Source of the DNA: Methylocystis hirsuta
GTDB taxonomy: Bacteria; Pseudomonadota; Alphaproteobacteria; Rhizobiales; Beijerinckiaceae
DNA: 64,000 bases
Direction: 5' to 3'
Assembly: GCF_003722355.1 (NCBI RefSeq)
Contig: NZ_QWDD01000001.1
Span: 3,401,001 to 3,465,000, forward strand
Below are positions 3,246 through 27,542 of the stretch, one piece after another. A program made the translations under genes and the position numbers. The notes under the pieces were generated by a model. The model did no database searches. It had not been told where the DNA came from and saw nothing but the letters and a program-made list of their open reading frames with translations. How positions within the stretch are numbered: the stretch's first letter is position 1; every line of letters starts with the position of its first letter.

Positions 3246-3256
3246 CGCCTTGCCCC

Positions 3257-3772
3257 TCAAAGCACGTTGGACAGCCGGCCATAGAGAAGCTCATCGACGC
3301 CTTCCGCGTAGATGTCGCCCTTGACGTCAATGCGCAGGAAGTATTGCGGCAGATTTTGAGCGCCGTGACCCCAGATTTGCAGACCGCCGGCCTCGCAGTC
3401 GAAACGCGAAAAATGCGCTGGGCAGTTGAATGTGCGATCGTCGCCGCTGTAACTTAGCGGAACCCCCCGGTGCGGGCAGATCGTAGAGAAACCCACGATA
3501 TCGGCGTCGGGACCGACGCCATTTGGCGCGGACCTGCCGAGCTTGACCAGAACGCCCGGCGCGTCGTCGTCAGGATATGCCACGCTCAACGGCTCGTTGA
3601 CCTTGAGATCGCGAATATTCGCAAGCCGATTGGACGGGTATTCGACCCGAGCCTGCGCCTGGGCTGCTCGGGCGGCGCCCGCGGAAGGCGTCGCCGCGGC
3701 GGCGCCGACCACAGCGATGCTTTCAAGAAACCTGCGGCGACCGACGCCGAATGATGTGTTGTGTCTCTTCAT
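3257..3772 (-). CDS. aioB: Arsenite oxidase small (Rieske) subunit AioB
   Basis: This 171-residue protein begins with a twin-arginine signal (GRRRFLESIAVVGAAAA), indicating Tat export of the folded heterodimer. The Rieske [2Fe-2S] ligands appear as CPHRGVPL and CPAHFSRFD. It passes electrons from AioA to a periplasmic cytochrome or azurin, which is not encoded nearby. It is the first gene of the aioBA pair. About 200 bases upstream separate it from an arsC remnant, so it may have its own promoter or be read through from arsR. Confidence 0.95.
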   Translation of the reverse strand: MKRHNTSFGVGRRRFLESIAVVGAAAATPSAGAARAAQAQARVEYPSNRLANIRDLKVNEPLSVAYPDDDAPGVLVKLGRSAPNGVGPDADIVGFSTICPHRGVPLSYSGDDRTFNCPAHFSRFDCEAGGLQIWGHGAQNLPQYFLRIDVKGDIYAEGVDELLYGRLSNVL

Positions 3773-7832: not shown

Positions 7833-8948
7833 ATGCTGCGACCACTCCGAATAGGCATAACGATCGGGTTGTCGTCTCCGAACGAAAGCCTATGGATCAA
7901 TGGCATCAAGCAGAATGCGCTGTTCCTCGCGAAACTCTTTCAAAGCTCGCCCTTAAATCACGACGTCGTGCTGCTGAACACGACCAATGTGCGTCCCGAT
8001 TCACGAACAGAATGGGACATGCGCGCGTTCCCTATTGTTCAGATTGACGAATGTTCCCACAATCTCGACGTGTTGATTGAGCTCGGCGGACAAATATCCT
8101 ATTCGCAAACGCAGCGGCACAAGGCGAAAGGCGGGAAGCTTGTCAGCTACTGCTGCGGTCCAGAATATGTTCAGAACATCGAGGCGATGATCTTCGAGCG
8201 ACGGATGTGGGACAGTATTTTTGTCAACGCCGATTACGACGAGCTTTGGGTCATCCCTCAAGTCGCGGAATCGTCCTTGCATTTCCTGCAAACGTTCCGG
8301 CGATGCCCGGCGCGCATTGTTCCCTTCGTATGGGATCCCATGGCGCTGACGTCCATTGCGTCCGGCTACGCTTTTGGCGGCGAGTATCGGCCAGCAGGCG
8401 CGCCGAAGCGGCTCACGGTGATCGAGCCGAACATTGATGTGATGAAATTCTGTCTCTACCCGATCTTGATCGCGGAGCAAGCGTTCAGGCTGGAACCTAA
8501 TCGAATCGGCTTCCTGCATGTCGCGAACGCCGACCATTTGGTGCATCGCAATACCGAGTTTGCGAGCTTGATGCGGCATCTCGACATCGTCAAGGCGAAC
8601 AAGGCGAGCTTCATCGGTCGGGTGAAGACTCCGGAATTCCTCGCGGAATACACCGATATTGTCATCTCTCATCAGTGGGGTCTGCCGCTCAACTATTTCT
8701 ACTTGGAATGCTGCTGGCAGGGCTATCCGCTGATTCACAACGCCGAGCTCGTGAAGGACCTCGGCTACTATTATCCCGGTAACGACGTGGCCGTCGCGAC
8801 TCAGGCGCTGATCCACGCGCTTCGCCATCACGACGAAGCATGGGAGGCGTATCGCGACGAACAGCGCGCTGGGATCCAAAGATTTCTTGCGGTGAACCCG
8901 GAATTGGCGGCGCGATACGACGATTTGCTGTTCGAGCTCTGCGGGTAA
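7833..8948 (+). CDS. DUF2827-family protein, copy 1 (putative glycosyltransferase-like)
   Basis: A 371-residue protein homologous to those at 9086-10252 and 21502-22620. Shared blocks are an N-terminal RIGITIGLSS strand then LWINGIKQNALFL, a central EPNIDVMKFC, and a C-terminal VISHQWGLPLNYFYLE followed by GYPLIHN and GYYYPGND. The alternation of strand/helix blocks with a late glutamate/aspartate region resembles two-domain (GT-B-like) glycosyltransferases; that is inference. The start at 7833 places the first strand at the N-terminus as in copy 3. No signal peptide, so likely cytoplasmic. Confidence 0.8.
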   Translation: MLRPLRIGITIGLSSPNESLWINGIKQNALFLAKLFQSSPLNHDVVLLNTTNVRPDSRTEWDMRAFPIVQIDECSHNLDVLIELGGQISYSQTQRHKAKGGKLVSYCCGPEYVQNIEAMIFERRMWDSIFVNADYDELWVIPQVAESSLHFLQTFRRCPARIVPFVWDPMALTSIASGYAFGGEYRPAGAPKRLTVIEPNIDVMKFCLYPILIAEQAFRLEPNRIGFLHVANADHLVHRNTEFASLMRHLDIVKANKASFIGRVKTPEFLAEYTDIVISHQWGLPLNYFYLECCWQGYPLIHNAELVKDLGYYYPGNDVAVATQALIHALRHHDEAWEAYRDEQRAGIQRFLAVNPELAARYDDLLFELCG

Positions 8949-9085
8949 GCCACTCGCGCGCGAAGCGAAAAAGACAGCTTCTTAACCGGCATGAGCGGCC
9001 GAAATTCTGTCAAGACGCGCTCCTTCTCGGGCTGGAACCAACCTGCATGTTCTTGTGCGTGCCCGGCAGGCGCCCGCGCAGCCTA

Positions 9086-10252
9086 TTATTGCTTACCATC
9101 TTCGACCAGCTCGAGCAGCGCCGCGCTGTATGCGGCGACATTGCGTTCGCTGCAAGGATCGAGTTTCGCCAGAAATTGGCGCGCCTTCGCCCGGTATGTC
9201 CCGAGTGATCGATCATGCTCTCGATGAGCTTGCAACAGCGCGAGCGCGCCATCCTCACAATTGTAATCGTCATATCTGTAGCCGCAGTCATCCAGGAACG
9301 TCGAATTGTGAATGAGCGCGTACCCCCCATATAGAGTTTCGTAATACAAGTAGTTTTGGCCGTTGTGCCAGTGGTGGGAGACGACAGCGTCTGCTTGGCC
9401 AGGAAGGACGTCGAATATCGGCAGCCGCGGCTCGAAGGTGGCGAGACCGTGGTTGACGAGATCGAGACTGCGAGCAAATCCTATGAAGCCATGATGCTCT
9501 TTGAGCTTCATGGCGTTATAGACGCGGAGGTATTCGACGAATTGCCGATCGCGTCGGTAAGCGGTATCGCACAGCAGCATCGGCAAATGACAGGTCTTCA
9601 CCGAACAGATATTCGGCTCCAATATCGCAAGGCGCCACCTGCGCTGGCCTGGGCTATAAAAAAAGGAGTTTGTCTTGCCATTTTTCTCGAGCGCATGCTC
9701 GAGGAAAAACGGACTCCACAAATGTCGCATCACGCTCACCCGGGCGCGGAAGCCGTATTCGTAATAGCTTGCGCAGGTCTTTTCGAAGGCGGGAAGAGTC
9801 CAAATGACGTCGTAGGCCGTTCCGGACATCAGCATGCCATGTGGGAGCCCATACATCATGCGCTCGACGTCGATTATGAAGTCGTTGGCGACGTGCATAC
9901 CGACGATTTTTCCGCCACGGCAACGAAATTCTCTGCCCCAATCCGGATTGAGTTGCGCGCTCAATTCGATGACGACGTCGAGAGCGTTCATCGCTTCGTC
10001 GAGAGCGATGATCGGCGCAGGAGACCACGCAACAAAATCCCCTTGCGTCTTGGGGTCTCCGGGTCCCCCATTCACGACAAAGCATTGCTCGACCAAAGGC
10101 GACCGTTTGAGCAGCAGCACCAGAAAGTAACAATTTTGGAAGATGCCGTTTTCCCAGATGGATTGTTGGTCGTCGCGAATGTAGAGCGTCACGCCGACGC
10201 GCAGCTTTCGCTTGGCGCGCTGCGGATCGAGAGTAATTTCGGGTAAGATCAT
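9086..10252 (-). CDS. DUF2827-family protein, copy 2 (putative glycosyltransferase-like)
   Basis: A 388-residue homologue convergent with copy 1 (137 bases between stops). It carries IWENGIFQNCYFL, EPNICSVKTC, and VVSHHWHNGQNYLYYE followed by GYALIHN, aligning with the blocks of the other two copies. The N-terminus before the first strand is about 15 residues longer than in copy 3. An ATG at 10294 would add 14 more residues; the ATG at 10252 is preferred but has no strong ribosome site. It is transcribed away from the giant adhesin gene. Confidence 0.78.
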   Translation of the reverse strand: MILPEITLDPQRAKRKLRVGVTLYIRDDQQSIWENGIFQNCYFLVLLLKRSPLVEQCFVVNGGPGDPKTQGDFVAWSPAPIIALDEAMNALDVVIELSAQLNPDWGREFRCRGGKIVGMHVANDFIIDVERMMYGLPHGMLMSGTAYDVIWTLPAFEKTCASYYEYGFRARVSVMRHLWSPFFLEHALEKNGKTNSFFYSPGQRRWRLAILEPNICSVKTCHLPMLLCDTAYRRDRQFVEYLRVYNAMKLKEHHGFIGFARSLDLVNHGLATFEPRLPIFDVLPGQADAVVSHHWHNGQNYLYYETLYGGYALIHNSTFLDDCGYRYDDYNCEDGALALLQAHREHDRSLGTYRAKARQFLAKLDPCSERNVAAYSAALLELVEDGKQ

Positions 10253-10282
10253 TGCAACGGACCCTTGGAGCGCTTCCCGATC

Positions 10283-10379
10283 GCATGGACTCATGTGATC
10301 GATAAGGAATCGCTCAACATCAAATGTTGGAGCAGGTTCTCATCGAAAACGTCTGTCAACTTTTTCAGAACCTGCTCCA
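10283..10379. repeat. Palindromic intergenic element
   Basis: Contains CGATAAGGAATCGCTC followed by a 13-bp perfect inverted repeat, TGGAGCAGGTTCT at 10328-10340 and its complement at 10367-10379, around a 26-base loop. The composition resembles mosaic intergenic repeats common in Hyphomicrobiales genomes (from memory). It could form a stem downstream of neither neighbour, since both adjacent genes are transcribed away from it. Confidence 0.5.
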
Positions 10380-10865
10380 GTGTGTCGTGACAGGGTAGCG
10401 AATTCGCGATTCGATCGGCAAGGGCGCGCAAAGCCGAATAGCGGCGCGCGCGTCGATGGAAAAGGCGATGGGGTAGCGCTCCTTGGCGACCTTGGATGGC
10501 GCTCGCCCAAATGAGAAATCCGTATTCCGCAGCGCAGAGGGCGTTTTTTGCGGTTGTCGGAGCAAGATCTGGACGCCACGGGCGGTGCGAAAGACAAGAA
10601 GCTCACAGCAGAGATTTCACCGCAACGATCAAAGCGACCATAGTCGCGTGGATAGGATTGATCCATTGACGATGTCCGGAGCGGCCGTCATGTCCGACCC
10701 GCGCCTTGCCCACGCCTTGCCCCAAGTATCGGTCGGAAGATGCGACGCACAAGCTTAAGCTTGATCGTAAAGGTTGTTTAACTTTTCAGTACATGCATCA
10801 GAGAGATGCGCTGCGCCCTAAGTTTATGAACCAATGCAATAATTAGTCTTTTATTACGACAAACC
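10380..10865. other. Intergenic stretch upstream of the adhesin
   Basis: Nearly 490 bases with only short frames lacking family motifs. It includes a 14-bp perfect palindrome, CAAGCTTAAGCTTG, at 10750-10763. Base composition turns AT-rich from about 10765, consistent with a promoter region for the adhesin gene. Confidence 0.5.
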
Positions 10866-10895
10866 TTGACTGTGGTACTTTCGTAACAGTATTCT
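10866..10895 (+). promoter_or_regulatory. Candidate sigma70-type promoter of the adhesin gene
   Basis: TTGACT at 10866-10871 and TATTCT at 10890-10895 are separated by 18 bases in an AT-rich stretch, ending 56 bases before the first in-frame ATG. This is the best -35/-10 match upstream of the gene; it is a pattern match only. Confidence 0.4.
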
Positions 10896-10951
10896 GAAAT
10901 TCGTTATTTGCGAGCATGTAGACAATTGCAGCGCAAGCTTTTCCTTTTGTA

Positions 10952-13900
10952 ATGCAACGCGCACCGGGGGAACTCCGATCCGGGGGTGGCGCTTGGCCAA
11001 TTAGCGGGAGAATTCCCACGCGCGACGCGACACGATACGAGAGCTTGACCGCCGAGCGCGCCATTCGCGTGGCGGTTACGGGCGATTCGGCGCCGGGCGC
11101 GCAGGTGCGGCGGCGGGTGCTCGCTATTCTGCGCAAAGCCTTCCGTGTTTTGGGCTTCAAGCGGCGGTCGATCGGCCGACTCGGCGGCGGCGGCGTGGCG
11201 ATAAGCGACGTGCTCGCGTTTTTTGGACATGGCGGGGAGCACGGCTCGCGCGCAACGCGTTCGAACGGCCGCGGTCCGCCGTCCGCACACCGCTGGACGC
11301 CGTCTTTATCCTGGCGTTCCACGGCCTTGTCGAAAGCTGTCCTCGGTTCGCTCGTCTTTTCGAGCTCGAGTCTTGTTCTGAATGTTCAGAATGCAAACGC
11401 CGCAGTCGCTCTTACCGGCGCATTCCTTTGTGCTAACGCCAATACTCAAGGGAGATATTTCCGGAACAATTTAGCCCTTACGGCCTACACCACTGGCCCT
11501 TGCACGTTTGGCAACTCTGGATTTGTTCCAGGCACCAATACCTATGCGTTGATAGGGTCTAGCGGCGTGACCGCCAACGGAACCGGTGGGGTCTTTAACA
11601 ACTCAACCGGCCAGATTCAGTTTTTTCCTGGTGGAACGTCGACTTCAGCCCTGACGCTTTCGGGGGGAACAGACGTTATTACGTCAGCGGCAGGGGTAAC
11701 GATTTCCGGCGTCGCCGCTCAGGCGCTGTCGCCGACAAGCACCTACGCCGTGAACGGCGGCCAGCTTTATTCGGTTTCCACGAGTCTATCGACCGGGCTC
11801 TCGACGACGAACAGCACTGTGACGACGCTGTCGACCTCCGCCTCGAGCGGCGTTGCTTCCTTGTCGACTGGGCTTTCAACCACGAACAGCAGTGTGGCGA
11901 CGCTGTCGACTTCCGCGTCGAGCGGCGTCGCTTCGCTGTCGACGGGCGTCAGCACGGCGCAGTCGGGCGTCGCCTCGCTGTCGACCGGGCTCTCGACGAC
12001 GAACAGCACTGTGGCGACGTTGTCGACCTCTACGTCGAGCGGGCTCTCGACCACGAACAGCACTCTGACGTCGCTGTCGACCTCTACGTCGAGCGGCGTC
12101 GCCTCGCTGTCGACGGGCGTCAGCACAGCGCAGTCGGGCGTCGCCTCGCTGTCCACCGGGCTCTCGACGACGAACAGCACTGTGGCGACGTTGTCGACAG
12201 GCGTCAGCACGGCGCAGTCGGGCGTCGCTTCGCTATCGACGGGTCTTTCGACGACAAACAGCAGCGTGGCGACGCTGTCGACTTCCACATCGACCGGCCT
12301 CAGCACGGCGCAGAGCGGCGTGGCTTCCTTGTCGACTGGGCTCTCGACGACAAACAGCAGCGTGACGTCGCTGTCGACCTCTTCGTCGAGCGGCGTCGCC
12401 TCGCTATCGACCGGCCTGTCGACGACGAACAGCAGTGTGGCGACGTTGTCGACCTCCACATCGAGCGGCGTGGCGTCGCTATCGACGGGCGTCAGCACGG
12501 CGCAATCAGGCGTCGCCTCGCTATCGACGGGTCTGTCGACGACGAACAGCACTGTGACGTCGCTGTCGACCTCTACGTCGAGCGGCGTCGCTTCGCTGTC
12601 GACGGGCGTCAGCACGGCGCAGTCAGGCGTCGCCTCGCTATCGACGGGTCTGTCGACAACAAACAGCGACCTGGCGACTCTGTCGACTTCCGCGTCGACG
12701 GGCCTTTCGACGACGAACAGCACTGTGGCGACACTGTCGACCTCTACGTCGAGCGGCGTCGCCTCACTCTCAACTGGGCTTTCGACGACAAACAGCAATG
12801 TGACGGCGCTGTCGACCTCTTCGTCGAGCGGCGTCGCCTCGCTATCGACCGGCCTGTCGACGACGAACAGCACTGTGACGTCACTGTCGACCTCCGCCTC
12901 GAGCGGCGTCGCCTCGCTGTCGACGGGCGTCAGCACGGCGCAGTCGGGCGTCGCCTCGCTATCGACGGGTCTGTCGTCGACGAACAGCAATGTGACGGCG
13001 TTGTCGACCTCCGCGTCAAGCGGCGTCGCTTCTCTGTCGACTGGGCTGTCGACTACGAACAGCGACCTGGCGACTCTGTCGACTTCCGCGTCGACGGGCC
13101 TTTCGACGACGAACAGCACTGTGGCGACACTGTCGACTTCCGCTTCGAGCGGCGTCGCCTCGCTTTCGACGGGCGTCAGCACGGCGCAGTCGGGCGTCGC
13201 CTCGCTGTCGACCGGGCTCTCGACGACGAACAGCACTGTGGCGACGTTGTCGACTTCCACATCGACCGGCCTCAGCACGGCGCAGAGCGGCGTGGCTTCC
13301 TTGTCGACTGGGCTCTCGACGACGAACAGCACTGTGACGTCGCTGTCGACCTCTACGTCGAGCGGCGTCGCTTCGCTGTCGACGGGCGTCAGCACGGCGC
13401 AGTCAGGCGTCGCCTCGCTATCGACGGGTCTGTCGACAACAAACAGCGACCTGGCGACTCTGTCGACTTCCGCGTCGACGGGCCTTTCGACGACGAACAG
13501 CACTGTGGCGACACTGTCGACCTCCGCTTCGAGCGGCGTCGCCTCGCTGTCGACGGGCGTCAGCACGGCGCAATCGGGCGTCGCCTCGCTGTCGACCGGG
13601 CTGTCGACGACAAACAGCAGCGTGGCGACACTGTCGACCTCCGCCTCGAGCGGAGTCGCCTCGCTTTCGACGGGCGTCAGCACGGCGCAGTCGGGCGTCG
13701 CTTCGCTATCGACGGGTCTTTCGACGACAAACAGCACTGTGGCGACACTGTCGACTTCCGCCTCGAGCGGCGTCGCCTCGCTGTCGACCGGGCTCTCGAC
13801 GACGAACAGCACTGTGGCGACGTTGTCGACGGGCGTCAGCACCGCGCAGTCGGGCGTCGCCTCGTTGTCGACGGGCCTCTCGACGACGAACAGCAGCGTG

Positions 13901-16900
13901 GCGACGCTGTCGACTTCCACATCGACCGGCCTCAGCACGGCGCAGAGCGGCGTTGCTTCCTTGTCGACTGGGCTTTCGACAACGAACAGCAGCGTGGCGA
14001 CACTGTCGACTTCCGCCTCGAGCGGCGTCGCCTCGCTATCGACCGGCCTGTCGACGACGAACAGCAATGTGACGTCACTGTCGACCTCCGCCTCGAGCGG
14101 CGTCGCCTCGCTGTCGACGGGCGTCAGCACGGCGCAGTCGGGCGTCGCCTCGCTGTCGACCGGGCTCTCGACGACGAACAGCACTGTGGCGACGCTGTCG
14201 ACCTCTATGTCGAGCGGAGTCGCCTCGCTGTCGACGGGCGTCAGCACCGCGCAGTCAGGCGTCGCCTCGCTGTCCACCGGGCTCTCGACGACGAACAGCA
14301 GCGTGACGGCGTTGTCGACTTCAGCGTCGAGCGGCGTGGCGTCGCTATCGACGGGCCTCTCGACGACAAACAGCACTGTGACGGCGTTGTCGACTTCCGC
14401 GTCGAGCGGCGTGGCTTCGCTATCGACGGGCGTCAGCACGGCGCAGTCGGGCGTCGCTTCGCTGTCCACCGGGCTCTCGACGACAAACAGCAGTGTGGCG
14501 ACGCTGTCGACTTCCACATCGAGCGGCGTCGCCTCGCTATCGACGGGTCTGTCGTCGACGAACAGCAGTGTGGCGACGCTGTCGACTTCCGCGTCGAGCG
14601 GCGTCGCTTCGCTGTCGACGGGCGTCAGCACGGCGCAGTCGGGCGTCGCCTCGCTGTCCACCGGGCTCTCGACGACGAACAGCACTGTGGCGACGTTGTC
14701 GACGGGCGTCAGCACGGCGCAGTCGGGCGTCGCTTCGCTATCGACGGGTCTTTCGACGACAAACAGCAGCGTGGCGACGCTGTCGACCTCTACGTCGAGC
14801 GGCGTCGCCTCGCTATCGACCGGCCTCTCGACCACGAACAGCACTGTGACGACGCTGTCGACCTCCGCGTCGAGCGGCGTGGCTTCCTTGTCCACTGGCC
14901 TCTCGACGACAAACAGCAGCGTGGCGACACTGTCGACTTCCGCCTCGAGCGGCGTCGCCTCGCTGTCGACGGGCGTCAGCGCGGCGCAGTCAGGCGTCGC
15001 CTCGCTATCGACGGGTCTGTCGACAACAAACAGCGACCTGGCGACTCTGTCGACTTCCGCGTCGACGGGCCTTTCGACGACGAACAGCACTGTGGCGACA
15101 CTGTCGACCTCCGCCTCGAGCGGCCTCAGCACGGCGCAGAGCGGCGTTGCTTCCTTGTCGACTGGGCTTTCGACGACAAACAGCAATATGACGACGCTGT
15201 CGACTTCCACATCGAGCGGCGTCGCTTCATTGTCGACCGGCCTCTCGACGACAAACAGCAATGTGACGTCACTGTCGACCTCCACATCGAGCGGCGTGGC
15301 GTCGCTATCGACGGGCGTCAGCACGGCGCAATCGGGCGTCGCCTCGCTATCGACGGGTCTGTCGTCGACGAACAGCAGCGTGACGACGTTGTCGACCTCC
15401 GCGTCAAGCGGCGTCGCCTCGCTGTCGACGGGTCTTTCGACGACAAACAGCAGCGTGGCGACGCTGTCGACCTCCGCTTCGAGCGGCGTGGCTTCTCTGT
15501 CGACGGGCGTCAGCACGGCGCAGTCGGGCGTCGCCTCGCTGTCCACCGGGCTCTCGACGACAAACAGCAGCGTGGCGACGCTGTCGACCTCCGCGTCGAG
15601 CGGCGTCGCTTCGCTGTCGACGGGCGTCAGCACCGCGCAGTCGGGCGTCGCCTCGTTGTCGACGGGCCTCTCGACGACGAACAGCAATGTGACGTCACTG
15701 TCGACCTCCGCTTCGAGCGGCGTGGCGTCGCTATCGACGGGCGTCAGCACGGCGCAATCGGGCGTCGCCTCGCTGTCGACGGGCCTGTCGACGACGAACA
15801 GCAGCGTGGCGACGCTGTCGACTTCCGCCTCGAGCGGCGTCGCCTCGCTGTCGACGGGCGTCAGCGCGGCGCAGTCAGGCGTCGCCTCGCTATCGACGGG
15901 TCTGTCGACAACAAACAGCGACCTGGCGACTCTGTCGACATCCGCGTCGACGGGCCTTTCGACGACGAACAGCACTGTGGCGACACTGTCGACCTCCGCT
16001 TCGAGCGGCCTCAGCACGGCGCAGAGCGGCGTTGCTTCCTTGTCGACTGGGCTTTCGACGACAAACAGCAATATGACGACGCTGTCGACTTCCGCCTCGA
16101 GCGGCGTCGCCTCGCTGTCGACCGGCCTCTCGACGACAAACAGCAATGTGACGTCACTGTCGACCTCCACATCGAGCGGCGTGGCGTCGCTATCGACGGG
16201 CGTCAGCACGGCGCAATCGGGCGTCGCCTCGCTATCGACGGGTCTGTCGTCGACGAACAGCAGCGTGACGACGTTGTCGACCTCCGCGTCAAGCGGCGTC
16301 GCTTCTCTGTCGACTGGGCTGTCGACGACGAACAGCGACCTGGCGACTCTGTCGACTTCCACATCGAGCGGCGTCGCTTCATTGTCGACGGGCCTCTCGA
16401 CGACAAACAGCAATATAACGTCGCTGTCGACCTCCGCGTCCACCGGGCTGTCGACGACGAACAGCACTGTGGCGACGCTGTCGACCTCTACGTCGAGCGG
16501 CGTCGCCTCGCTGTCGACGGGCGTCAGCGCGGCGCAGTCGGGCGTCGCCTCGCTATCGACGGGTCTGTCGTCGACGAACAGCAATGTGACGGCGTTGTCG
16601 ACCTCTACGTCGAGCGGAGTCGCTTCGCTATCGACGGGCGTCAGCACGGCGCAGTCAGGCGTCGCGTCCCTGTCCACCGGGCTCTCGACGACGAACAGCA
16701 GCGTGACGGCGTTGTCGACCTCCACGTCCACCGGGCTGTCGACGACGAACAGCACTGTGACGTCGTTGTCGACCTCCGCCTCGAGCGGCGTGGCTTCTCT
16801 GTCGACTGGGCTCTCGACGACGAACAGCACTGTGGCGACGCTGTCGACTTCCGCGTCGAGCGGCGTCGCTTCGCTGTCGACGGGCGTCAGCGCGGCGCAG

Positions 16901-19900
16901 TCAGGCGTCGCCTCGCTATCGACGGGTCTGTCGACAACAAACAGCGACCTGGCGACTCTGTCGACTTCCGCGTCGACGGGCCTTTCGACGACGAACAGCA
17001 CTGTGGCGACACTGTCGACCTCCGCGTCGAGCGGCGTGGCTTCCTTGTCGACTGGGCTTTCGACGACAAACAGCAATGTGACGGCGTTGTCGACCTCTAC
17101 GTCGAGCGGGCTCTCGACGACGAACAGCAATGTGACGTCACTGTCGACCTCCACATCGAGCGGCGTGGCGTCGCTATCGACGGGCGTCAGCACGGCGCAG
17201 TCGGGCGTCGCCTCGCTATCGACCGGGCTCTCGACGACGAACAGCAATGTGACGTCACTGTCGACCTCCACATCGAGCGGCGTGGCGTCGCTATCGACGG
17301 GCGTCAGCACGGCGCAGTCGGGCGTCGCCTCGCTATCGACCGGGCTCTCGACGACGAACAGCACTGTGGCGACGTTGTCGACCTCTACGTCGAGCGGCGT
17401 CGCCTCGCTGTCGACGGGCGTCAGCGCGGCGCAGTCAGGCGTCGCCTCGCTATCGACGGGTCTGTCGACAACAAACAGCGACCTGGCGACTCTGTCGACT
17501 TCCGCGTCGACGGGCCTTTCGACGACGAACAGCACTGTGGCGACACTGTCGACCTCCGCTTCGAGCGGCGTTGCTTCCTTGTCGACTGGGCTTTCGTCGA
17601 CGAACAGCAATGTGACGGCGTTGTCGACCTCCGCGTCAAGCGGCGTCGCTTCTCTGTCGACTGGGCTGTCGACTACGAACAGCGACCTGGCGACTCTGTC
17701 GACTTCCGCGTCGACGGGCCTTTCGACGACGAACAGCACTGTGGCGACGCTGTCGACTTCCGCCTCGAGCGGCGTCGCCTCGCTGTCGACGGGCGTCAGC
17801 ACGGCGCAATCGGGCGTCGCCTCGCTGTCGACCGGGCTGTCGACGACAAACAGCAGCGTGGCGACACTGTCGACCTCCGCCTCGAGCGGCGTCGCCTCGC
17901 TGTCGACGGGCGTCAGCGCGGCGCAGTCAGGCGTCGCCTCGCTATCGACGGGTCTGTCGACAACAAACAGCGACCTGGCGACTCTGTCGACTTCCGCGTC
18001 GACGGGCCTTTCGACGACGAACAGCACTGTGGCGACACTGTCGACCTCCGCTTCGAGCGGCGTTGCTTCCTTGTCGACTGGGCTTTCGACGACAAACAGC
18101 AATGTGACGGCGCTGTCGACTTCCACATCGACCGGCCTCAGCACGGCGCAGTCGGGCGTCGCTTCGCTATCGACGGGTCTTTCAACGACAAACAGCAGCG
18201 TGACGACGTTGTCGACTTCCACATCGACCGGCCTCAGCACGGCGCAGAGCGGCGTTGCTTCCTTGTCGACTGGGCTTTCGACGACGAACAGCAGCGTGGC
18301 GACACTGTCGACCTCCGCGTCGAGCGGCGTGGCTTCGCTGTCGACGGGCGTCAGCACGGCGCAGTCGGGCGTCGCCTCGCTGTCCACCGGGCTGTCGACG
18401 ACGAACAGCACTGTGACGTCGTTGTCGACTTCCGCGTCAAGCGGCGTGGCTTCGCTGTCGACGGGCGTCAGCACGGCGCAATCGGGCGTCGCCTCGCTGT
18501 CGACTGGGCTTTCGACGACGAACAGCAGCGTGGCGACACTGTCGACCTCCGCGTCGAGCGGCGTGGCTTCGCTGTCGACGGGCGTCAGCACGGCGCAGTC
18601 GGGCGTCGCCTCGCTGTCCACCGGGCTCTCGACGACGAACAGCAATGTTGCGTCGCTGTCGTCCTCTACGTCGAGCGGCGTCGCCTCGCTATCGACCGGC
18701 CTCTCGACGACAAACAGCACTGTGACGGCGTTGTCGACTTCCGCGTCGAGCGGCGTGGCTTCGCTATCGACGGGCCTCAGCACGGCGCATAGCGGCGTTG
18801 CTTCCTTGTCGACTGGGCTTTCGACGACAAACAGCACTGTGACGGCGCTGTCGACCTCCGCCTCGAGCGGCGTCGCCTCGCTGTCGACGGGCGTCAGCGC
18901 GGCGCAGTCAGGCGTCGCCTCGCTATCGACGGGTCTGTCGACAACAAACAGCGACCTGGCGACTCTGTCGACTTCCGCGTCGACGGGCCTTTCGACGACG
19001 AACAGCACTGTGGCGACACTGTCGACCTCCGCTTCGAGCGGCGTTGCTTCCTTGTCGACTGGGCTTTCGACGACAAACAGCAATGTGACGGCGCTGTCGA
19101 CCTCTACGTCGAGCGGGCTCTCGACGACGAACAGCAATGTGACGTCACTGTCGACCTCCACATCGAGCGGCGTGGCGTCGCTATCGACGGGCGTCAGCAC
19201 GGCGCAGTCGGGCGTCGCCTCGCTATCGACCGGCCTCTCGGCGACGAACAGCGACCTGGCGACTCTGTCGACTTCCACATCGAGCGGCGTCGCTTCATTG
19301 TCGACGGGCCTCTCGACGACAAACAGCAATGTAACGTCGCTGTCGACTTCCGCCTCGAGCGGCGTCGCCTCGCTGTCGACTGGGCTCTCGACGACGAACA
19401 GCACTGTGACGGCGTTGTCGACATCCGCCTCGAGCGGCGTGGCTTCGCTATCGACGGGCGTCAGCACGGCGCAGTCGGGCGTCGCCTCGCTGTCGACCGG
19501 GCTCTCGACGACGAACAGCACTGTGGCGACGCTGTCGACCTCTACGTCGAGCGGAGTCGCTTCGCTATCGACGGGCGTCAGCACGGCGCAGTCAGGCGTC
19601 GCGTCCCTGTCCACCGGGCTCTCGACGACGAACAGCAGCGTGACGGCGTTGTCGACCTCCACGTCCACCGGGCTGTCGACGACGAACAGCACTGTGACGT
19701 CGTTGTCGACTTCCGCGTCAAGCGGCGTGGCTTCGCTGTCGACGGGCGTCAGCACGGCGCAATCGGGCGTCGCCTCGCTATCGACGGGTCTGTCGACAAC
19801 AAACAGCGACCTGGCGTCTCTGTCGACTTCCGCGTCGACGGGCCTTTCGACGACGAACAGCACTGTGGCGACACTGTCGACTTCCACATCGACCGGCCTC

Positions 19901-21247
19901 AGCACGGCGCAGAGCGGCGTTGCTTCCTTGTCGACTGGGCTTTCGACCACGAACAGCGATGTGGCGACGCTGTCGACTTCCGCCTCGAGCGGCGTCGCCT
20001 CGCTGTCGACCGGGCTCTCGACGACGAACAGCACTGTGGCGACGTTGTCGACGGGCGTCAGCACCGCGCAGTCGGGCGTCGCCTCGTTGTCGACGGGCCT
20101 CTCGACGACGAACAGCAGCGTGGCGACACTGTCGACTTCCACATCGACCGGCCTCAGCACGGCGCAGAGCGGCGTTGCTTCCTTGTCGACTGGGCTCTCG
20201 ACGACGAACAGCAGCGTCTCCTCGCTAAGCACCACGGTGTCGTCGCTGGCGAGCGGAACAATCGGGCCGGTGGTCGTGGGTAATTCCGGGACGCATGTGC
20301 AATCGACGGCGACAGGCACGGGTGCGGTCGGCGGCGGCGACGGGTCGAGCGCGAACGGCGCGGGCGCGGTGGCGATCGGACTGAACCAGGTATCCAACGG
20401 CAACGGTGCTGTAGCGATTGGGGATCCGAACTCGGCGACGGGCACTGGCGCGGTGGCGATCGGCGCGAACAACATCGCTAGCGGCGATGGCGCGCTGGCG
20501 ACCGGCAACGGCAACTTCGCAAGCGGACAGGGCGCGATCGCGGCCGGCAACAATAGCGTGGCGAAGGGCGCCAGCGCCATCGCCATGGGCGACACGGCCA
20601 ACGCCTCGGCGGACAATGCTATTGCGTTCGGCGCCGGCGCGAGCGCAACCGGTGCGAATTCGGTCGCGATCGGTTCGGGCAGTATAGCGTCGCAGGCGGA
20701 CACGGTATCGGTTGGCGCGGTCGGCGCCGAGCGGACGATCGTGAACGTCGCGGCGGGCTGGCTCGGGGCGGGCTCGACCAACGCGGTCAACGGCGGCCAG
20801 ATGAACGCATTGGGGACGAGCGTGGCGGCGGGGCTCGGCGGGGGCGCGGCGTTCAATACGCAGACCGGGTCGCTCACGGCTCCGAGCTACACAATCCAGG
20901 GCACGAGCTACAATAACGCCGGCTCGGCCTTCGCCGCCGTGGATGCGGCGCTGTCGGGCCTCTATTCCGCCACCTTGCAAATCGGGCAGGACTTGAACAA
21001 GGTTCGACGCGAGGAGCGTGGCGGCATCGCAGCGGTCGCCGCGATGCCTGCGGCGCCGATGCCTTCGGCGGCCGGCCGGACAAGCTGGGTTGGCAACGTG
21101 GCCTGGTTCAAGGATCAGACCGGCATAGGCTTTAGCTTCGCGCATCGTCTGGACGTGAATAGGCCGATCGCGATCACCGGCGCCATCAGCGTGGCGCCTG
21201 GGACGTCGAACTTCGTCGGCCGCGGCGGTCTAATGGGAGAGTTCTGA
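10952..21247 (+). CDS. Giant trimeric autotransporter adhesin (YadA-type) with Ser/Thr repeat stalk
   Basis: The 3431-codon gene encodes, in order: a 125-residue N-terminal extension; a signal peptide (about 126-150, ending QNANA); a unique head (151-260) with two Cys and a neck-like VAAQALSPTSTYAVNG; a repeat stalk (about 275-3095); YadA-type head repeats with AVAIG motifs (about 3115-3250); a neck with NVAAGW and TNAVNGGQ; and a C-terminal YadA anchor (about 3340-3431) ending in Phe. Such proteins trimerise, and the anchor forms a 12-strand outer-membrane barrel (type Vc secretion). The first ATG lacks a ribosome site; an in-frame TTG at 11327 would give a conventional 25-residue signal peptide, so the start is uncertain. 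No accessory TpgA/SadB gene is adjacent. Three DUF2827 genes surround it. Confidence 0.9.
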   Translation: MQRAPGELRSGGGAWPISGRIPTRDATRYESLTAERAIRVAVTGDSAPGAQVRRRVLAILRKAFRVLGFKRRSIGRLGGGGVAISDVLAFFGHGGEHGSRATRSNGRGPPSAHRWTPSLSWRSTALSKAVLGSLVFSSSSLVLNVQNANAAVALTGAFLCANANTQGRYFRNNLALTAYTTGPCTFGNSGFVPGTNTYALIGSSGVTANGTGGVFNNSTGQIQFFPGGTSTSALTLSGGTDVITSAAGVTISGVAAQALSPTSTYAVNGGQLYSVSTSLSTGLSTTNSTVTTLSTSASSGVASLSTGLSTTNSSVATLSTSASSGVASLSTGVSTAQSGVASLSTGLSTTNSTVATLSTSTSSGLSTTNSTLTSLSTSTSSGVASLSTGVSTAQSGVASLSTGLSTTNSTVATLSTGVSTAQSGVASLSTGLSTTNSSVATLSTSTSTGLSTAQSGVASLSTGLSTTNSSVTSLSTSSSSGVASLSTGLSTTNSSVATLSTSTSSGVASLSTGVSTAQSGVASLSTGLSTTNSTVTSLSTSTSSGVASLSTGVSTAQSGVASLSTGLSTTNSDLATLSTSASTGLSTTNSTVATLSTSTSSGVASLSTGLSTTNSNVTALSTSSSSGVASLSTGLSTTNSTVTSLSTSASSGVASLSTGVSTAQSGVASLSTGLSSTNSNVTALSTSASSGVASLSTGLSTTNSDLATLSTSASTGLSTTNSTVATLSTSASSGVASLSTGVSTAQSGVASLSTGLSTTNSTVATLSTSTSTGLSTAQSGVASLSTGLSTTNSTVTSLSTSTSSGVASLSTGVSTAQSGVASLSTGLSTTNSDLATLSTSASTGLSTTNSTVATLSTSASSGVASLSTGVSTAQSGVASLSTGLSTTNSSVATLSTSASSGVASLSTGVSTAQSGVASLSTGLSTTNSTVATLSTSASSGVASLSTGLSTTNSTVATLSTGVSTAQSGVASLSTGLSTTNSSVATLSTSTSTGLSTAQSGVASLSTGLSTTNSSVATLSTSASSGVASLSTGLSTTNSNVTSLSTSASSGVASLSTGVSTAQSGVASLSTGLSTTNSTVATLSTSMSSGVASLSTGVSTAQSGVASLSTGLSTTNSSVTALSTSASSGVASLSTGLSTTNSTVTALSTSASSGVASLSTGVSTAQSGVASLSTGLSTTNSSVATLSTSTSSGVASLSTGLSSTNSSVATLSTSASSGVASLSTGVSTAQSGVASLSTGLSTTNSTVATLSTGVSTAQSGVASLSTGLSTTNSSVATLSTSTSSGVASLSTGLSTTNSTVTTLSTSASSGVASLSTGLSTTNSSVATLSTSASSGVASLSTGVSAAQSGVASLSTGLSTTNSDLATLSTSASTGLSTTNSTVATLSTSASSGLSTAQSGVASLSTGLSTTNSNMTTLSTSTSSGVASLSTGLSTTNSNVTSLSTSTSSGVASLSTGVSTAQSGVASLSTGLSSTNSSVTTLSTSASSGVASLSTGLSTTNSSVATLSTSASSGVASLSTGVSTAQSGVASLSTGLSTTNSSVATLSTSASSGVASLSTGVSTAQSGVASLSTGLSTTNSNVTSLSTSASSGVASLSTGVSTAQSGVASLSTGLSTTNSSVATLSTSASSGVASLSTGVSAAQSGVASLSTGLSTTNSDLATLSTSASTGLSTTNSTVATLSTSASSGLSTAQSGVASLSTGLSTTNSNMTTLSTSASSGVASLSTGLSTTNSNVTSLSTSTSSGVASLSTGVSTAQSGVASLSTGLSSTNSSVTTLSTSASSGVASLSTGLSTTNSDLATLSTSTSSGVASLSTGLSTTNSNITSLSTSASTGLSTTNSTVATLSTSTSSGVASLSTGVSAAQSGVASLSTGLSSTNSNVTALSTSTSSGVASLSTGVSTAQSGVASLSTGLSTTNSSVTALSTSTSTGLSTTNSTVTSLSTSASSGVASLSTGLSTTNSTVATLSTSASSGVASLSTGVSAAQSGVASLSTGLSTTNSDLATLSTSASTGLSTTNSTVATLSTSASSGVASLSTGLSTTNSNVTALSTSTSSGLSTTNSNVTSLSTSTSSGVASLSTGVSTAQSGVASLSTGLSTTNSNVTSLSTSTSSGVASLSTGVSTAQSGVASLSTGLSTTNSTVATLSTSTSSGVASLSTGVSAAQSGVASLSTGLSTTNSDLATLSTSASTGLSTTNSTVATLSTSASSGVASLSTGLSSTNSNVTALSTSASSGVASLSTGLSTTNSDLATLSTSASTGLSTTNSTVATLSTSASSGVASLSTGVSTAQSGVASLSTGLSTTNSSVATLSTSASSGVASLSTGVSAAQSGVASLSTGLSTTNSDLATLSTSASTGLSTTNSTVATLSTSASSGVASLSTGLSTTNSNVTALSTSTSTGLSTAQSGVASLSTGLSTTNSSVTTLSTSTSTGLSTAQSGVASLSTGLSTTNSSVATLSTSASSGVASLSTGVSTAQSGVASLSTGLSTTNSTVTSLSTSASSGVASLSTGVSTAQSGVASLSTGLSTTNSSVATLSTSASSGVASLSTGVSTAQSGVASLSTGLSTTNSNVASLSSSTSSGVASLSTGLSTTNSTVTALSTSASSGVASLSTGLSTAHSGVASLSTGLSTTNSTVTALSTSASSGVASLSTGVSAAQSGVASLSTGLSTTNSDLATLSTSASTGLSTTNSTVATLSTSASSGVASLSTGLSTTNSNVTALSTSTSSGLSTTNSNVTSLSTSTSSGVASLSTGVSTAQSGVASLSTGLSATNSDLATLSTSTSSGVASLSTGLSTTNSNVTSLSTSASSGVASLSTGLSTTNSTVTALSTSASSGVASLSTGVSTAQSGVASLSTGLSTTNSTVATLSTSTSSGVASLSTGVSTAQSGVASLSTGLSTTNSSVTALSTSTSTGLSTTNSTVTSLSTSASSGVASLSTGVSTAQSGVASLSTGLSTTNSDLASLSTSASTGLSTTNSTVATLSTSTSTGLSTAQSGVASLSTGLSTTNSDVATLSTSASSGVASLSTGLSTTNSTVATLSTGVSTAQSGVASLSTGLSTTNSSVATLSTSTSTGLSTAQSGVASLSTGLSTTNSSVSSLSTTVSSLASGTIGPVVVGNSGTHVQSTATGTGAVGGGDGSSANGAGAVAIGLNQVSNGNGAVAIGDPNSATGTGAVAIGANNIASGDGALATGNGNFASGQGAIAAGNNSVAKGASAIAMGDTANASADNAIAFGAGASATGANSVAIGSGSIASQADTVSVGAVGAERTIVNVAAGWLGAGSTNAVNGGQMNALGTSVAAGLGGGAAFNTQTGSLTAPSYTIQGTSYNNAGSAFAAVDAALSGLYSATLQIGQDLNKVRREERGGIAAVAAMPAAPMPSAAGRTSWVGNVAWFKDQTGIGFSFAHRLDVNRPIAITGAISVAPGTSNFVGRGGLMGEF
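11779..20235 (+). repeat. Ser/Thr-rich coding repeat stalk of the adhesin
   Basis: About 8.4 kb of uninterrupted in-frame repeats. The protein unit is a 14-residue block (LSTGLSTTNSTVAT) followed by an 11-residue block (LSTSASSGVAS), often with an extra 14-residue block (LSTGVSTAQSGVAS). Over half the residues are Ser or Thr and charged residues are almost absent, apart from Asp in NSDLA variants. Leu/Val spacing fits heptads (0,4,7,11) and hendecads (0,4,8,11), as in trimeric coiled coils. The DNA is dense in GTCGAC and contains long identical blocks at large spacing. Confidence 0.93.
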
Positions 21248-21278
21248 TCTCCGCATTCCACGTGCTGCGCGCGGCGTG

Positions 21279-21315
21279 CTCCGCATGAAAAGGCTTTCGG
21301 TCTTTCTAAGCGGAG
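21279..21315 (+). terminator. Weak stem-loop after the adhesin gene
   Basis: CTCCGC at 21279-21284 pairs with GCGGAG at 21310-21315, with an inner AAAG/CTTT pairing. There is no T tract after it, so it is at best a weak or Rho-assisted terminator. Confidence 0.3.
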
Positions 21316-21501
21316 GCGCCAATTCCTGTTTCGCGAGCGTATTGAGAAAAACATGCGGAGAATGGCGCGGGGCGATTATCCGACGGACGTGCGCGCATGG
21401 CCTTCATGAAGTTCTTCAAGAATTCGCGTGATGACTCCAAGGTTGATGTTCCCCGGGGGCGTCTCCAACGTGCTTGATTGAAGCGTTTAAGGGGGAATGG
21501 A

Positions 21502-22620
21502 ATGCGGATTGGCCTTTCGGTCTTGACGCGCGCAGGTCAGAGCCTGTGGGAGAACGGCATCGGCCAAAATGTGGCATTTTTGGCCACTCTCTTGAAAAAC
21601 GCTCCCCTCGTCGAGGGGGTGTATCTACTCGATTGCGGAGACCAGGGCGCGCTCCCAGGAGACGCGCCTGCTGAATTTCGTTCTCTGCCGCTCATTCCGC
21701 TCGCCAGCGCTGGAGATGTCGTCGACGTCGCGATCGAAATCGCGGGCGGGCTCGATATCGAGTGGGTGAGACGATTCCGCGCGCGCGGCGGAAAGATTGT
21801 GTGCCATATCTGCGGTCAGCCCTATGCGGCGCTCATTGAATTTTCGGTCTTCAATCGTTCGGGATACTGGGGCGATCCGACCCGAGCGGATGAGATTTGG
21901 ATTCTGCCTAAGGACCGCGCCTTTGCCCCGATGTTGCGGAGCATGCACCGCTGCCCAGTTGAGATCATGCCTTACCTCTGGGCGCCAAACGTACTTGAGC
22001 ATTCGATCACGGAGGCGCGCTTAGAGGGACTGGAGTTCGGTTATCGTCCCGGCCCTGGTGGCGTGAAAAGCGCCGCGCGCATCGGAATTTTTGAGCCGAA
22101 CTTGTCGCCGATCAAGACATGCGTCATCAGTGCGATGATTTGCGATGCGCTCAATCGTGAGGCGAGCCCTGTCGTGGAGAGCGTGAGCCTATATAACGGC
22201 GCACACATGCAGGGGCAAACCACCTTTGATTTTTTTCGTAATTCCTTATCGTTGCACGATGAGAACAAGATTGCTGTCTATGGGCGGGAATATTTCGTAA
22301 GGGCGATGTCTAAATCGTGTAACGTTGTCATCAGTCATCAATTGCAATGCGAACAAAATTATCTGTACCTTGATGCGCTATACGGTGATTATCCACTCGT
22401 TCATAATTCTCCACTCTTTGCGCATGTCGGATATTATTTTGAAGATAGCGATATCGCAGAGGGAGTAAATCAACTGCGGCGCGCTTGCCTAACTCACGAT
22501 GAGAATCTCGAGCGCTATAGGGCGCGCTCACGAGCGGAGATGGATCGTTTGAGCCCTAGTAACCCTAGTAACGCCGCAGCGTACGTTCGTAGACTGATCG
22601 CGCTGAAAAGCGAATCTTGA
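21502..22620 (+). CDS. DUF2827-family protein, copy 3 (putative glycosyltransferase-like)
   Basis: A 372-residue protein starting MRIGLSVLTRAGQSLWENGI, with a good ribosome site (AAGGGGGAAT) that fixes the start at 21502. It shares EPNLSPIKTC and VISHQLQCEQNYLYLD then GYPLVHN-like YPLVHN with the other two copies. It lies 254 bases downstream of the adhesin on the same strand and may be co-transcribed. The family has no established function as far as I know. A nucleotide-sugar transferase role for stalk decoration is inferred from fold-like features and context only. Confidence 0.82.
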   Translation: MRIGLSVLTRAGQSLWENGIGQNVAFLATLLKNAPLVEGVYLLDCGDQGALPGDAPAEFRSLPLIPLASAGDVVDVAIEIAGGLDIEWVRRFRARGGKIVCHICGQPYAALIEFSVFNRSGYWGDPTRADEIWILPKDRAFAPMLRSMHRCPVEIMPYLWAPNVLEHSITEARLEGLEFGYRPGPGGVKSAARIGIFEPNLSPIKTCVISAMICDALNREASPVVESVSLYNGAHMQGQTTFDFFRNSLSLHDENKIAVYGREYFVRAMSKSCNVVISHQLQCEQNYLYLDALYGDYPLVHNSPLFAHVGYYFEDSDIAEGVNQLRRACLTHDENLERYRARSRAEMDRLSPSNPSNAAAYVRRLIALKSES

Positions 22621-22926: not shown

Positions 22927-24204
22927 ATGGCCATCGAGAGTCCTCGCAGCGCGTGGAAAGGCTTTATCGCGGTCGCTATCGCCGCCGCGATCGGTTTCTC
23001 CGCGACGATGTTCCATTTCAGAGCGGAAAGCGCGCCGATCAAGGTCGGAATCCTGCATTCGCGCACTGGGCCGATGGCGATCAGCGAAAATTCAATGGTC
23101 GACGCGGAGCTGCTCGCGATTGAGGAGATCAATGCGAAGGGCGGCTTACTAGGACGCAAGATTCAACCGATCATCGCCGACGGCAAATCCGATTGGCCGA
23201 CCTTCGCGAAAGAGGCCGAGCGCCTGATCACACAGGAAAACGTCTCCGTGATCTTCGGATGCTGGACCTCCGCAAGCCGTAAGACGGTCGCGCCCATCAT
23301 CGAAAAATATGGTCAGCTCTTGGTCTATCCTATGGCCTATGAGGGACTCGAACAGTCTCCCAACATTATCTACACGGGCGCGGCGCCCAATCAGCAGGTC
23401 ATTCCGGCGATCAAATGGAGCCTCGATCACATCGGCAAAAGATTCTACTTGATCGGCTCAGATTATGTTTGGCCGCACAGCATCAACGAAATTATGAAGG
23501 ACACGATCCGCGCGCTTGGCGCGGAGCTTGTGGGCGAAGACTATATTTTCTTTGGAAGCTCCAACGTCTCTCGGGCGGTCCAAAAAATCAAGCTGGCGCA
23601 GCCGGACGTTATTATCAGTTCGGTCGTGGGCGATTCCAACAAGGCGTTCTATCAGGCGCTGACCGACGCTGGGCTTTCCGCTGACAAATTGCCGGTTGTC
23701 TCCGTCAGCATTGGCGAAGAGGAGCTTCGCAGCCTACCGATTGCGAGCCTCCAAGGCCATTACAGCGCCTGGAGCTATTTCGAGGCGATCAAGAAGCCGG
23801 AAAACGAGCGGTTCATTCGCGCCTTTCGGGAAAGATATGGCGCCAATCGTGTGACGAGCGACGTTATTGCGACCTCTTACTTCAGCGTCATCTTATGGGC
23901 GAAGGCGGTCGAGGAGGCGCAGTCCTTCGACGTTCAGAGGGTCAAACGCACCATGCTGACCGAGACCCTCGATGCGCCCGAAGGTCTGGTGTCTGTTGAT
24001 CCTTACACGCAGCATACGTGGCGGTCTTTCTCTGTCGGCAAAATTCAAACTGATGGCCGGATCGAGCTTGTCTGGACGATCGATCGTCCGATCCGTCCTG
24101 TGCCCTATCCGCCGACTCGCACGAAAGCCGAGTGGGAGGAATTTCTGACCGCCTTGTACGACAGATGGGGCGGCAGATGGGCGAATCCGACAGAGGCGGA
24201 CTGA
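22927..24204 (+). CDS. UrtA/AmiC-type periplasmic ligand-binding protein
   Basis: A 425-residue type I periplasmic binding protein. After an N-terminal hydrophobic segment (about 12-30) come IKVGILHSRTGPMAISE and EEINAKGGLLGRKI, typical of the urea/short-chain amide binding branch. VIFGCWTSASRKTVAPI and YEGLEQSPNIIYTG are also typical. No ABC permease follows. The gene is instead 3 bases ahead of a sensor kinase, so it probably serves as a receptor presenting urea, amide or a related ligand to the kinase. The N-terminal segment could be a membrane anchor rather than a cleaved signal. Confidence 0.88.
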   Translation: MAIESPRSAWKGFIAVAIAAAIGFSATMFHFRAESAPIKVGILHSRTGPMAISENSMVDAELLAIEEINAKGGLLGRKIQPIIADGKSDWPTFAKEAERLITQENVSVIFGCWTSASRKTVAPIIEKYGQLLVYPMAYEGLEQSPNIIYTGAAPNQQVIPAIKWSLDHIGKRFYLIGSDYVWPHSINEIMKDTIRALGAELVGEDYIFFGSSNVSRAVQKIKLAQPDVIISSVVGDSNKAFYQALTDAGLSADKLPVVSVSIGEEELRSLPIASLQGHYSAWSYFEAIKKPENERFIRAFRERYGANRVTSDVIATSYFSVILWAKAVEEAQSFDVQRVKRTMLTETLDAPEGLVSVDPYTQHTWRSFSVGKIQTDGRIELVWTIDRPIRPVPYPPTRTKAEWEEFLTALYDRWGGRWANPTEAD

Positions 24205-24207
24205 TCC

Positions 24208-26979: not shown

Positions 26980-26996
26980 CATCGGAGACGGGGTCG

Positions 26997-27368
26997 GTGG
27001 TGAAGATTTTGCTTGTCGAAGATAATGAGATGAACCGGGATATGCTGTCGCGGCGCCTCAGGCGCAATGGCTATGAAGTCGTGATCGCCATAGATGGCCA
27101 GCAAGGCGTCGAGATGGCCGCCGCCGAATCGCCCGATCTCATCCTGATGGACATGAGCCTGCCGGTCATCGATGGCTGGGAGGCGGCCCGCCGGGTCAGA
27201 GAAAACGAAGCGACGCGCAGGATTCCAGTCATCGCCCTCACAGCCCACGCGATGGCAGGGGACCGGGAGAAGGCGATCGAAGCGGGCTGCGACGACTATG
27301 ACACGAAACCTGTCGAGATCACGCGTCTTCTGGGCAAGATCACCGCCCTGATTGAATCGGGCGCTTAG
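26997..27368 (+). CDS. Single-domain (DivK-like) response regulator
   Basis: A 123-residue receiver-only protein with acidic pair VEDNEMN, phospho-Asp in LILMDMSLPVIDG, Thr in IALTAHAM and Lys in DTKPVE. The GTG at 26997 is chosen because it gives MVKILLVEDN and lies 9 bases after GGAG. It starts 17 bases after the hybrid kinase stop and probably shuttles phosphate from it to an unknown partner or to the REC-cyclase downstream. Confidence 0.9.
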   Translation: MVKILLVEDNEMNRDMLSRRLRRNGYEVVIAIDGQQGVEMAAAESPDLILMDMSLPVIDGWEAARRVRENEATRRIPVIALTAHAMAGDREKAIEAGCDDYDTKPVEITRLLGKITALIESGA

Positions 27369-27542
27369 TATCGTCTGATCAATTGTCGTCTCGACGCCGC
27401 CGTCTCCGGCGCGGCCGCTTTCTTATAGCCGTCGCCGCAACGCGAACCCCGGCGACCCCGCGGTTGAACCGTTTATGAGAAACATGACTGACGCATCTTG
27501 GACGGCGGGCGCTGGCGCATTCCGGCTTTCTAGGAAAATAAG

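Follow-up and report, generated by a model that had tools for sequence, protein, structure and literature searches.

A 64,000-nt window of the Methylocystis hirsuta genome (GCF_003722355.1, NZ_QWDD01000001.1, positions 3,401,001-3,465,000 of the forward strand) contains three genes of the DUF2827 family placed around the gene of a very long, Ser/Thr-rich adhesin of the trimeric-autotransporter type. The three DUF2827 proteins are probably cytosolic GT-B enzymes that glycosylate Ser and Thr residues of the coiled-coil stalk of this adhesin, which is built of SLST-containing repeats, before its export. The genes, their linkage to such adhesins, the co-occurrence of both across genomes and the stalk motif are observed directly, and the fold and the cellular location of the enzymes are predicted.

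The DUF2827 locus and the adhesin

Paralogues A (class c1, 371 aa; 7833..8948, plus strand), B (class c4, 388 aa; 9086..10252, minus strand, with the longest open frame beginning at 10294) and C (class c2, 372 aa; 21502..22620, plus strand) are all encoded by intact reading frames. The likely substrate, an adhesin of 3,431 aa encoded in a single frame of 10.3 kb (10952..21247, plus strand), lies between B and C, and the gene of C starts on the same strand 255 bp past its end. The profile PF10933 (DUF2827) matches the three proteins over its full length (positions 1-362 of 362; E-values of 3.9e-133, 1.3e-126 and 8.9e-99; scores of 444, 423 and 331 bits with a curated cut-off of 25 bits), and a profile search of the 4.2-Mb genome yielded no other match. 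Pairwise identities among A, B and C are 30, 32 and 33% (B to A 30%, B to C 33%). The initial annotation, which described three homologous but diverged DUF2827 copies bracketing one Ser/Thr-rich surface protein, is thus borne out by the profile matches, the identities and the adhesin frame.

Close to its C-terminus the adhesin carries four stretches of YadA-type head repeats (PF05658, E 9.8e-16) and a sub-threshold match to the YadA stalk in Pfam, and YadA_anchor (PF03895) gave no match at E up to 1 in the C-terminal 348 or 248 aa. The designation "trimeric-autotransporter-type" was chosen because PF03895 is unmatched and the C-terminal end, judged by eye and not by a tool, only looks like a divergent anchor. 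The 2,860 aa of the stalk that were examined include 1,543 Ser/Thr and 15 charged residues, as well as 79 N-x-S/T sites. The hydrophobic residues of the stalk are spaced by 3, 4, 7 and 8, the autocorrelation peaks include 7, 11, 14, 25 and 39, and tandem repeats containing the tetramer SLST are found, a pattern consistent with a coiled-coil-like core surrounded by hydroxyl residues. Antisense to the stalk runs an open frame of 3,036 aa (11767-20877, minus strand), most likely a by-product of the repetitive codon use of the stalk.

Paralogue classes and linkage to adhesin genes

A scan of public genomes for DUF2827 yielded 57 loci. Clustering of 217 DUF2827 domains produced classes that are about 30-38% identical between and, bar one singleton, 53-94% identical within, and A, B and C fall in three separate classes that recur together elsewhere. 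Across 56 loci and the window, the set of classes is 1,3,4,4 in 26 cases, 1,2,4 in 17 and 1,4,4 in 7, with one or two copies in the other 7; the distance matrices of classes 1, 2 and 4 correlate at 0.87-0.92 over the 18 loci with one copy of each, a level matched by none of 2000 permutations. The same three or four paralogues are found together, downstream of Ser/Thr-rich adhesins, in other Proteobacteria. The family is rare in the window's own family (3 of 298 genomes, three copies each) and across the phylum (6 of 398), and it is present in 55 of the 200 genomes of the family of genome G610, which includes Burkholderia-like genomes.

Linkage was analyzed in 20 DUF2827-positive genomes of the latter family, containing 29 DUF2827 clusters and 89 YadA anchors. 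As many as 20 of the 29 clusters are located at most 5 kb from an anchor, with 0.42 expected, which dismisses chance proximity, and in 19 of these 20 the adhesin gene immediately precedes the cluster on the same strand. The neighborhood survey proposed to decide whether DUF2827 genes mostly accompany such adhesins therefore comes out in favor of the association. Among the public loci, 31 of 56 have at least 3 kb of upstream DNA, and 28 of the 31 hold a Ser/Thr-rich open reading frame (27 upstream, 1 downstream), the others being L013, L014 and L059. At L013, L014, L028 and L060 there is no adhesin gene beside DUF2827, yet each of these genomes encodes an SLST-bearing adhesin elsewhere, which suggests that the enzymes act on distant adhesins in trans.

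Some DUF2827 loci have further neighbors of interest. Beside the trio of L013 (11291-15725) are genes for TPR and GT9-like proteins and a GlcNAc-2-epimerase-type protein, and beside that of L086 (4893-11195) genes for GT34-like and methyltransferase-like proteins; both may be additional glycan-building genes. At L088, L089 and L091 (genomes G754, G833 and G864) a DUF2827 pair occurs in a conserved setting devoid of an adhesin, perhaps representing a branch with another substrate.

Co-occurrence of DUF2827 and the stalk was assessed with a 200-aa piece of the window stalk (12152-12751), a low-complexity query, run on the 200 genomes of G610's family with 16 candidates scored per genome. The stalk query matches 55 genomes and DUF2827 is found in 55, with 47 common to both and 137 having neither (phi 0.80); under strict thresholds phi rises to 0.88, and 3 stalk-only and 6 DUF2827-only genomes are left. 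Within seven genera, the stalk is found in 25 of 30 DUF2827-positive and 4 of 32 negative genomes (Cochran-Mantel-Haenszel p 1.7e-6). In a conservative version, which adds the stalk-positive negatives G782, G826, G852 and G853 and adds no stalk-negative genomes, the figure for negatives becomes 8 of 36 (p 5.6e-5).

Stalk composition and the SLST motif

Of the 89 anchors in the DUF2827-positive genomes, 21 are linked to DUF2827; after removal of a 143-aa linked frame and four unlinked ones shorter than 500 aa, and with four more unlinked frames not included, 20 linked and 60 unlinked adhesins were compared. The 60 negative genomes contain 93 anchors; removal of 28 with frames below 650 aa left 65, and the 40 longest of these, coming from 29 genomes, were used. 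Due to this length filter and selection, the set does not include the stalk-bearing frame of G738, which only the stalk query recovered. The median Ser+Thr fraction is 0.48 in linked and 0.23 in unlinked adhesins (p 4e-6) and the median charged fraction is 0.027 and 0.067, respectively (p 3e-5), both p-values being too small because the genomes are related. At least one 300-aa segment with a Ser+Thr fraction of 0.5 or more occurs in 17 of 20 linked and 14 of 60 unlinked adhesins and in none of the 40 from negative genomes, where the highest value is 0.34. Counted per genome among the adhesins sampled, a Ser/Thr-rich stalk is present in 16 of 19 DUF2827-positive and 0 of 29 negative genomes, and, in the six genera with both kinds of genomes, in 6 of 9 and 0 of 15. 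Within the own family of the window, such a stalk is found in the window and in both other DUF2827-positive genomes, and none of 36 adhesin pieces from DUF2827-negative genomes, which are fragments of about 4 kb, is Ser/Thr-rich (highest 0.31; no frame could be used from L236).

Bulk Ser/Thr content was rejected as the only predictor in view of the linked adhesin of G827, which has a DEKR fraction of 0.16, is low in Ser/Thr overall and contains 20 SLST tetramers. The same protein limits the suggestion that sugars replace charge as the solubility and spacing device: linked adhesins are indeed charge-poor as a group, but such replacement is not general.

Counting adhesins with at least three copies of the tetramer SLST gives 19 of 20 for the linked group, 30 of 60 for the unlinked group of the positive genomes and none of 40 for the negative genomes; every linked adhesin has at least two copies, and 6 of the 40 have at least one. 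None of the 36 own-family pieces of DUF2827-negative genomes contains the tetramer. When 4-mers were ranked by linked versus negative-genome adhesins, LSTS and SLST came top, and among the 48 low-Ser/Thr adhesins of positive genomes SLST again ranks first (17 of 48 versus 0 of 40). Given that the charged G827 adhesin is still SLST-rich, the motif follows the enzymes more closely than overall composition. In view of the enrichment in linked adhesins, the top rank among 4-mers and the copies in G827, we propose SLST, or the helix position marked by it, as a candidate acceptor motif.

The 79 N-x-S/T sites of the window stalk bring to mind protein N-glycosyltransferases of the HMW1C type, which are cytosolic GT-B enzymes serving adhesins and could act at such sites. 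We consider N-linkage of this kind very improbable, the least probable of the alternatives weighed here, because the density of N-x-S/T, an indirect measure, shows no difference between the linked and the unlinked group (p 0.10), in contrast to Ser/Thr content and SLST, and because no GT41 model in the Pfam scan showed similarity to DUF2827. That Ser/Thr and SLST are raised in linked adhesins and N-x-S/T is not points to O-linkage.

Predicted fold and conserved residues

The predicted structures of A and C, the two paralogues modelled, consist of two Rossmann-like domains and match solved GT-B glycosyltransferases over their full length (Foldseek and VIA-align), in accordance with the initial reading of DUF2827 as a two-domain transferase. 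The shared motif blocks on which that reading relied hold family-wide: in an alignment of 89 members (numbering of paralogue A), G24, Q27, E198-P199-N200, K205, H302-N303 and G311 are invariant, and W21, N23, S279, H280, N287 and Y288 are each kept in 85-88. The strict conservation of E198-P199-N200, K205 and H302-N303 across all classes looks like that of a catalytic or donor site. In retaining GT4 enzymes of the BshA/MshA type the donor-site motifs are R-x4-K and E-x7-E, and a comparison of sequences only shows that N200-x4-K205 and E/D292-x4-(G297)-x-(P299) of DUF2827 match them in spacing, with Arg replaced by Asn. The proteins are predicted to be cytosolic, since they have no signal or membrane segment. 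Among the fold matches are WaaG, PimA and TarM, enzymes of lipid and polysaccharide metabolism, and GtfA (5e9t, 4pqg); HMW1C-type enzymes are not among the 50 matches listed by VIA-align for either protein, which does not mean that their fold differs. NCBIfam gave no match above cut-off for the window DUF2827 proteins.

With WaaG, PimA and TarM among the nearest folds, and with sugar- and methyltransferase-type neighbors at some loci (L013, L086), the enzymes might be genuine glycosyltransferases making a surface polysaccharide or glycolipid and located near the adhesin since both are surface genes. This appears unlikely, although it is the most serious of the competing explanations: it would predict neither the match with one stalk motif nor the position of nearly all linked clusters immediately after the adhesin gene, and no polysaccharide gene set stands out among the 45 largest neighbor groups of 66 loci, most of these groups being unidentified.

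Another explanation is that the GT-B fold was retained and transfer was lost, the DUF2827 proteins serving as stalk chaperones or lectin-like factors and SLST being a structural repeat whose secretion depends on them. GtfB, the partner of GtfA, provides a precedent, the pseudo-glycosyltransferase VldE is one of the Foldseek matches of paralogue C, and co-occurrence and co-inheritance would suit a dedicated assembly factor equally well. That the residues resembling a catalytic or donor site are invariant in all 89 members speaks for activity and makes this a decidedly improbable account of the whole set, even if one of the three could still be a pseudo-enzyme.

Glycosylation of the stalk by DUF2827 also has to face a number of observations that weigh against it, in addition to the p-values, which are too small throughout owing to the kinship of the genomes. 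The GT-B fold alone is no proof of transfer, because the Foldseek list of paralogue C holds both VldE and UDP-GlcNAc 2-epimerase. At the sequence level, Pfam glycosyltransferase families reach only E 0.09-0.11 in 3 of 89 DUF2827 members (PF13439 in 2, PF13692 in 1), hhalign of DUF2827 with 17 GT4-type proteins of the same genome gave a local match with P 0.03, neither a single protein nor the DUF2827 profile used as query matched a PDB sequence, and the first Glu of E-x7-E has no clear counterpart. For nine of the 29 clusters, no anchor lies within 5 kb (two in G719, one in G730, two in G754, one each in G833 and G834, one of two in G864, and one in G828); the G828 cluster is a broken fragment 5.6 kb from an anchor, and G730, G719 and G833 bear Ser/Thr-rich adhesins elsewhere in the genome. 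Eight genomes have DUF2827 only (G698, G699, G717, G724, G789, G790, G834 and G870), the matches in the first four being weak, and eight have the stalk only (G738, G744, G764, G768, G782, G826, G852 and G853), with strong stalk matches in G738, G826 and G852. In G644, a single divergent DUF2827 gene (L093, 8829-9980) directly follows the gene of a 1,788-aa adhesin that lacks SLST; a different acceptor motif is perhaps used there. Finally, common descent of the stalk repeats is a fair alternative for part of the SLST association.

Proposed mechanism

For stalk glycosylation by DUF2827, we infer the catalysis, donor, linkage, order of events and action in trans as follows. The donor would be a nucleotide sugar, most probably a UDP-sugar as in the closest folds, and the sugar would be O-linked to Ser/Thr within SLST or its immediate neighborhood. 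The three paralogues may divide the labor, one initiating and the others extending the glycan or covering other positions, and the already glycosylated chain would then be exported by Sec and across the outer membrane. The Leu/Val core could still build the coiled coil, with the glycans borne by outward Ser/Thr positions. Where a genome encodes several SLST adhesins, one set of enzymes would serve all of them in trans.

More generally, there is an even chance that DUF2827 constitutes a new family of cytosolic protein O-glycosyltransferases across Alpha- and Betaproteobacteria, in which a three-paralogue set recognizes an SLST sequon, converts the stalks into sugar-coated rods with charge replaced in many of them, and serves several adhesins in trans, the Burkholderia SLST adhesins included.

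Other features of the window

A molybdopterin oxidoreductase gene with a Rieske_3 domain adjoins that of a small Rieske protein (783-3772, minus strand), resembling a pair of the arsenite-oxidase type. Right after the trio (22927-29186, plus strand) are genes for a periplasmic amide/urea-type binding protein, a hybrid histidine kinase and a response-regulator guanylate cyclase.

Comparison with known systems

For a family of unknown function, an enzyme class is thus predicted and a candidate substrate named. If the proposal is true, trimeric autotransporter stalks have a glycosylation system of their own, with a predicted acceptor motif; such adhesins produced without their DUF2827 partners would be in a non-native form, and the enzymes would offer a new tool for sugar-coating coiled-coil proteins. 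In the open-licence literature, on which the uncharacterized status of DUF2827 is based, PF10933 was not found, and the name DUF2827 appears in one database article, in a table under "Uronic acid pathway".

Dedicated glycosylation of adhesins is already known as a kind, as exemplified by GtfA/B, SdgA/B, HMW1C and AIDA-I/TibA. The O-GlcNAc transferase GtfA/GtfB modifies Gram-positive cell-wall adhesins with serine-rich repeats, which use the accessory Sec system. Like DUF2827, these are dedicated GT-B enzymes encoded beside a very long Ser-rich adhesin, but they belong to another sequence family, whereas the DUF2827 substrate would be a Gram-negative trimeric coiled-coil stalk and the enzymes usually come as three or more paralogues. 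SdgA/SdgB, acting on staphylococcal Ser-Asp repeat adhesins, differ in being larger, with about 11% identity in structural alignment, and in their SD instead of SLST repeats. In the HMW1C/NGT and AIDA-I/TibA heptosyltransferase systems, the enzyme gene likewise lies beside the adhesin gene and modification precedes Sec export; these systems differ in attaching N-linked hexose or O-heptose, in acting on two-partner or classical autotransporters and in belonging to other protein families, and we know of no link between them and trimeric autotransporter stalks.

Counterparts of the window adhesin are the Burkholderia trimeric autotransporters BCAM2418, BoaA, BoaB and BMA1027, for which the SLST signature has been described (PMC7142374, PMC2955633, PMC4021183) and, for BCAM2418, possible O-glycosylation suggested (PMC7142374). 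They share the stalk signature with the window adhesin, and the accessible portions of these accounts name no enzyme; the SLST serine-rich repeats, described there since 2010 without a biosynthetic explanation, gain a proposed one. The link of SLST adhesins to DUF2827 is drawn in this analysis, and what is new compared with the systems above is the enzyme family, the substrate class, the candidate motif and the coupling of DUF2827 to the stalk sequence.

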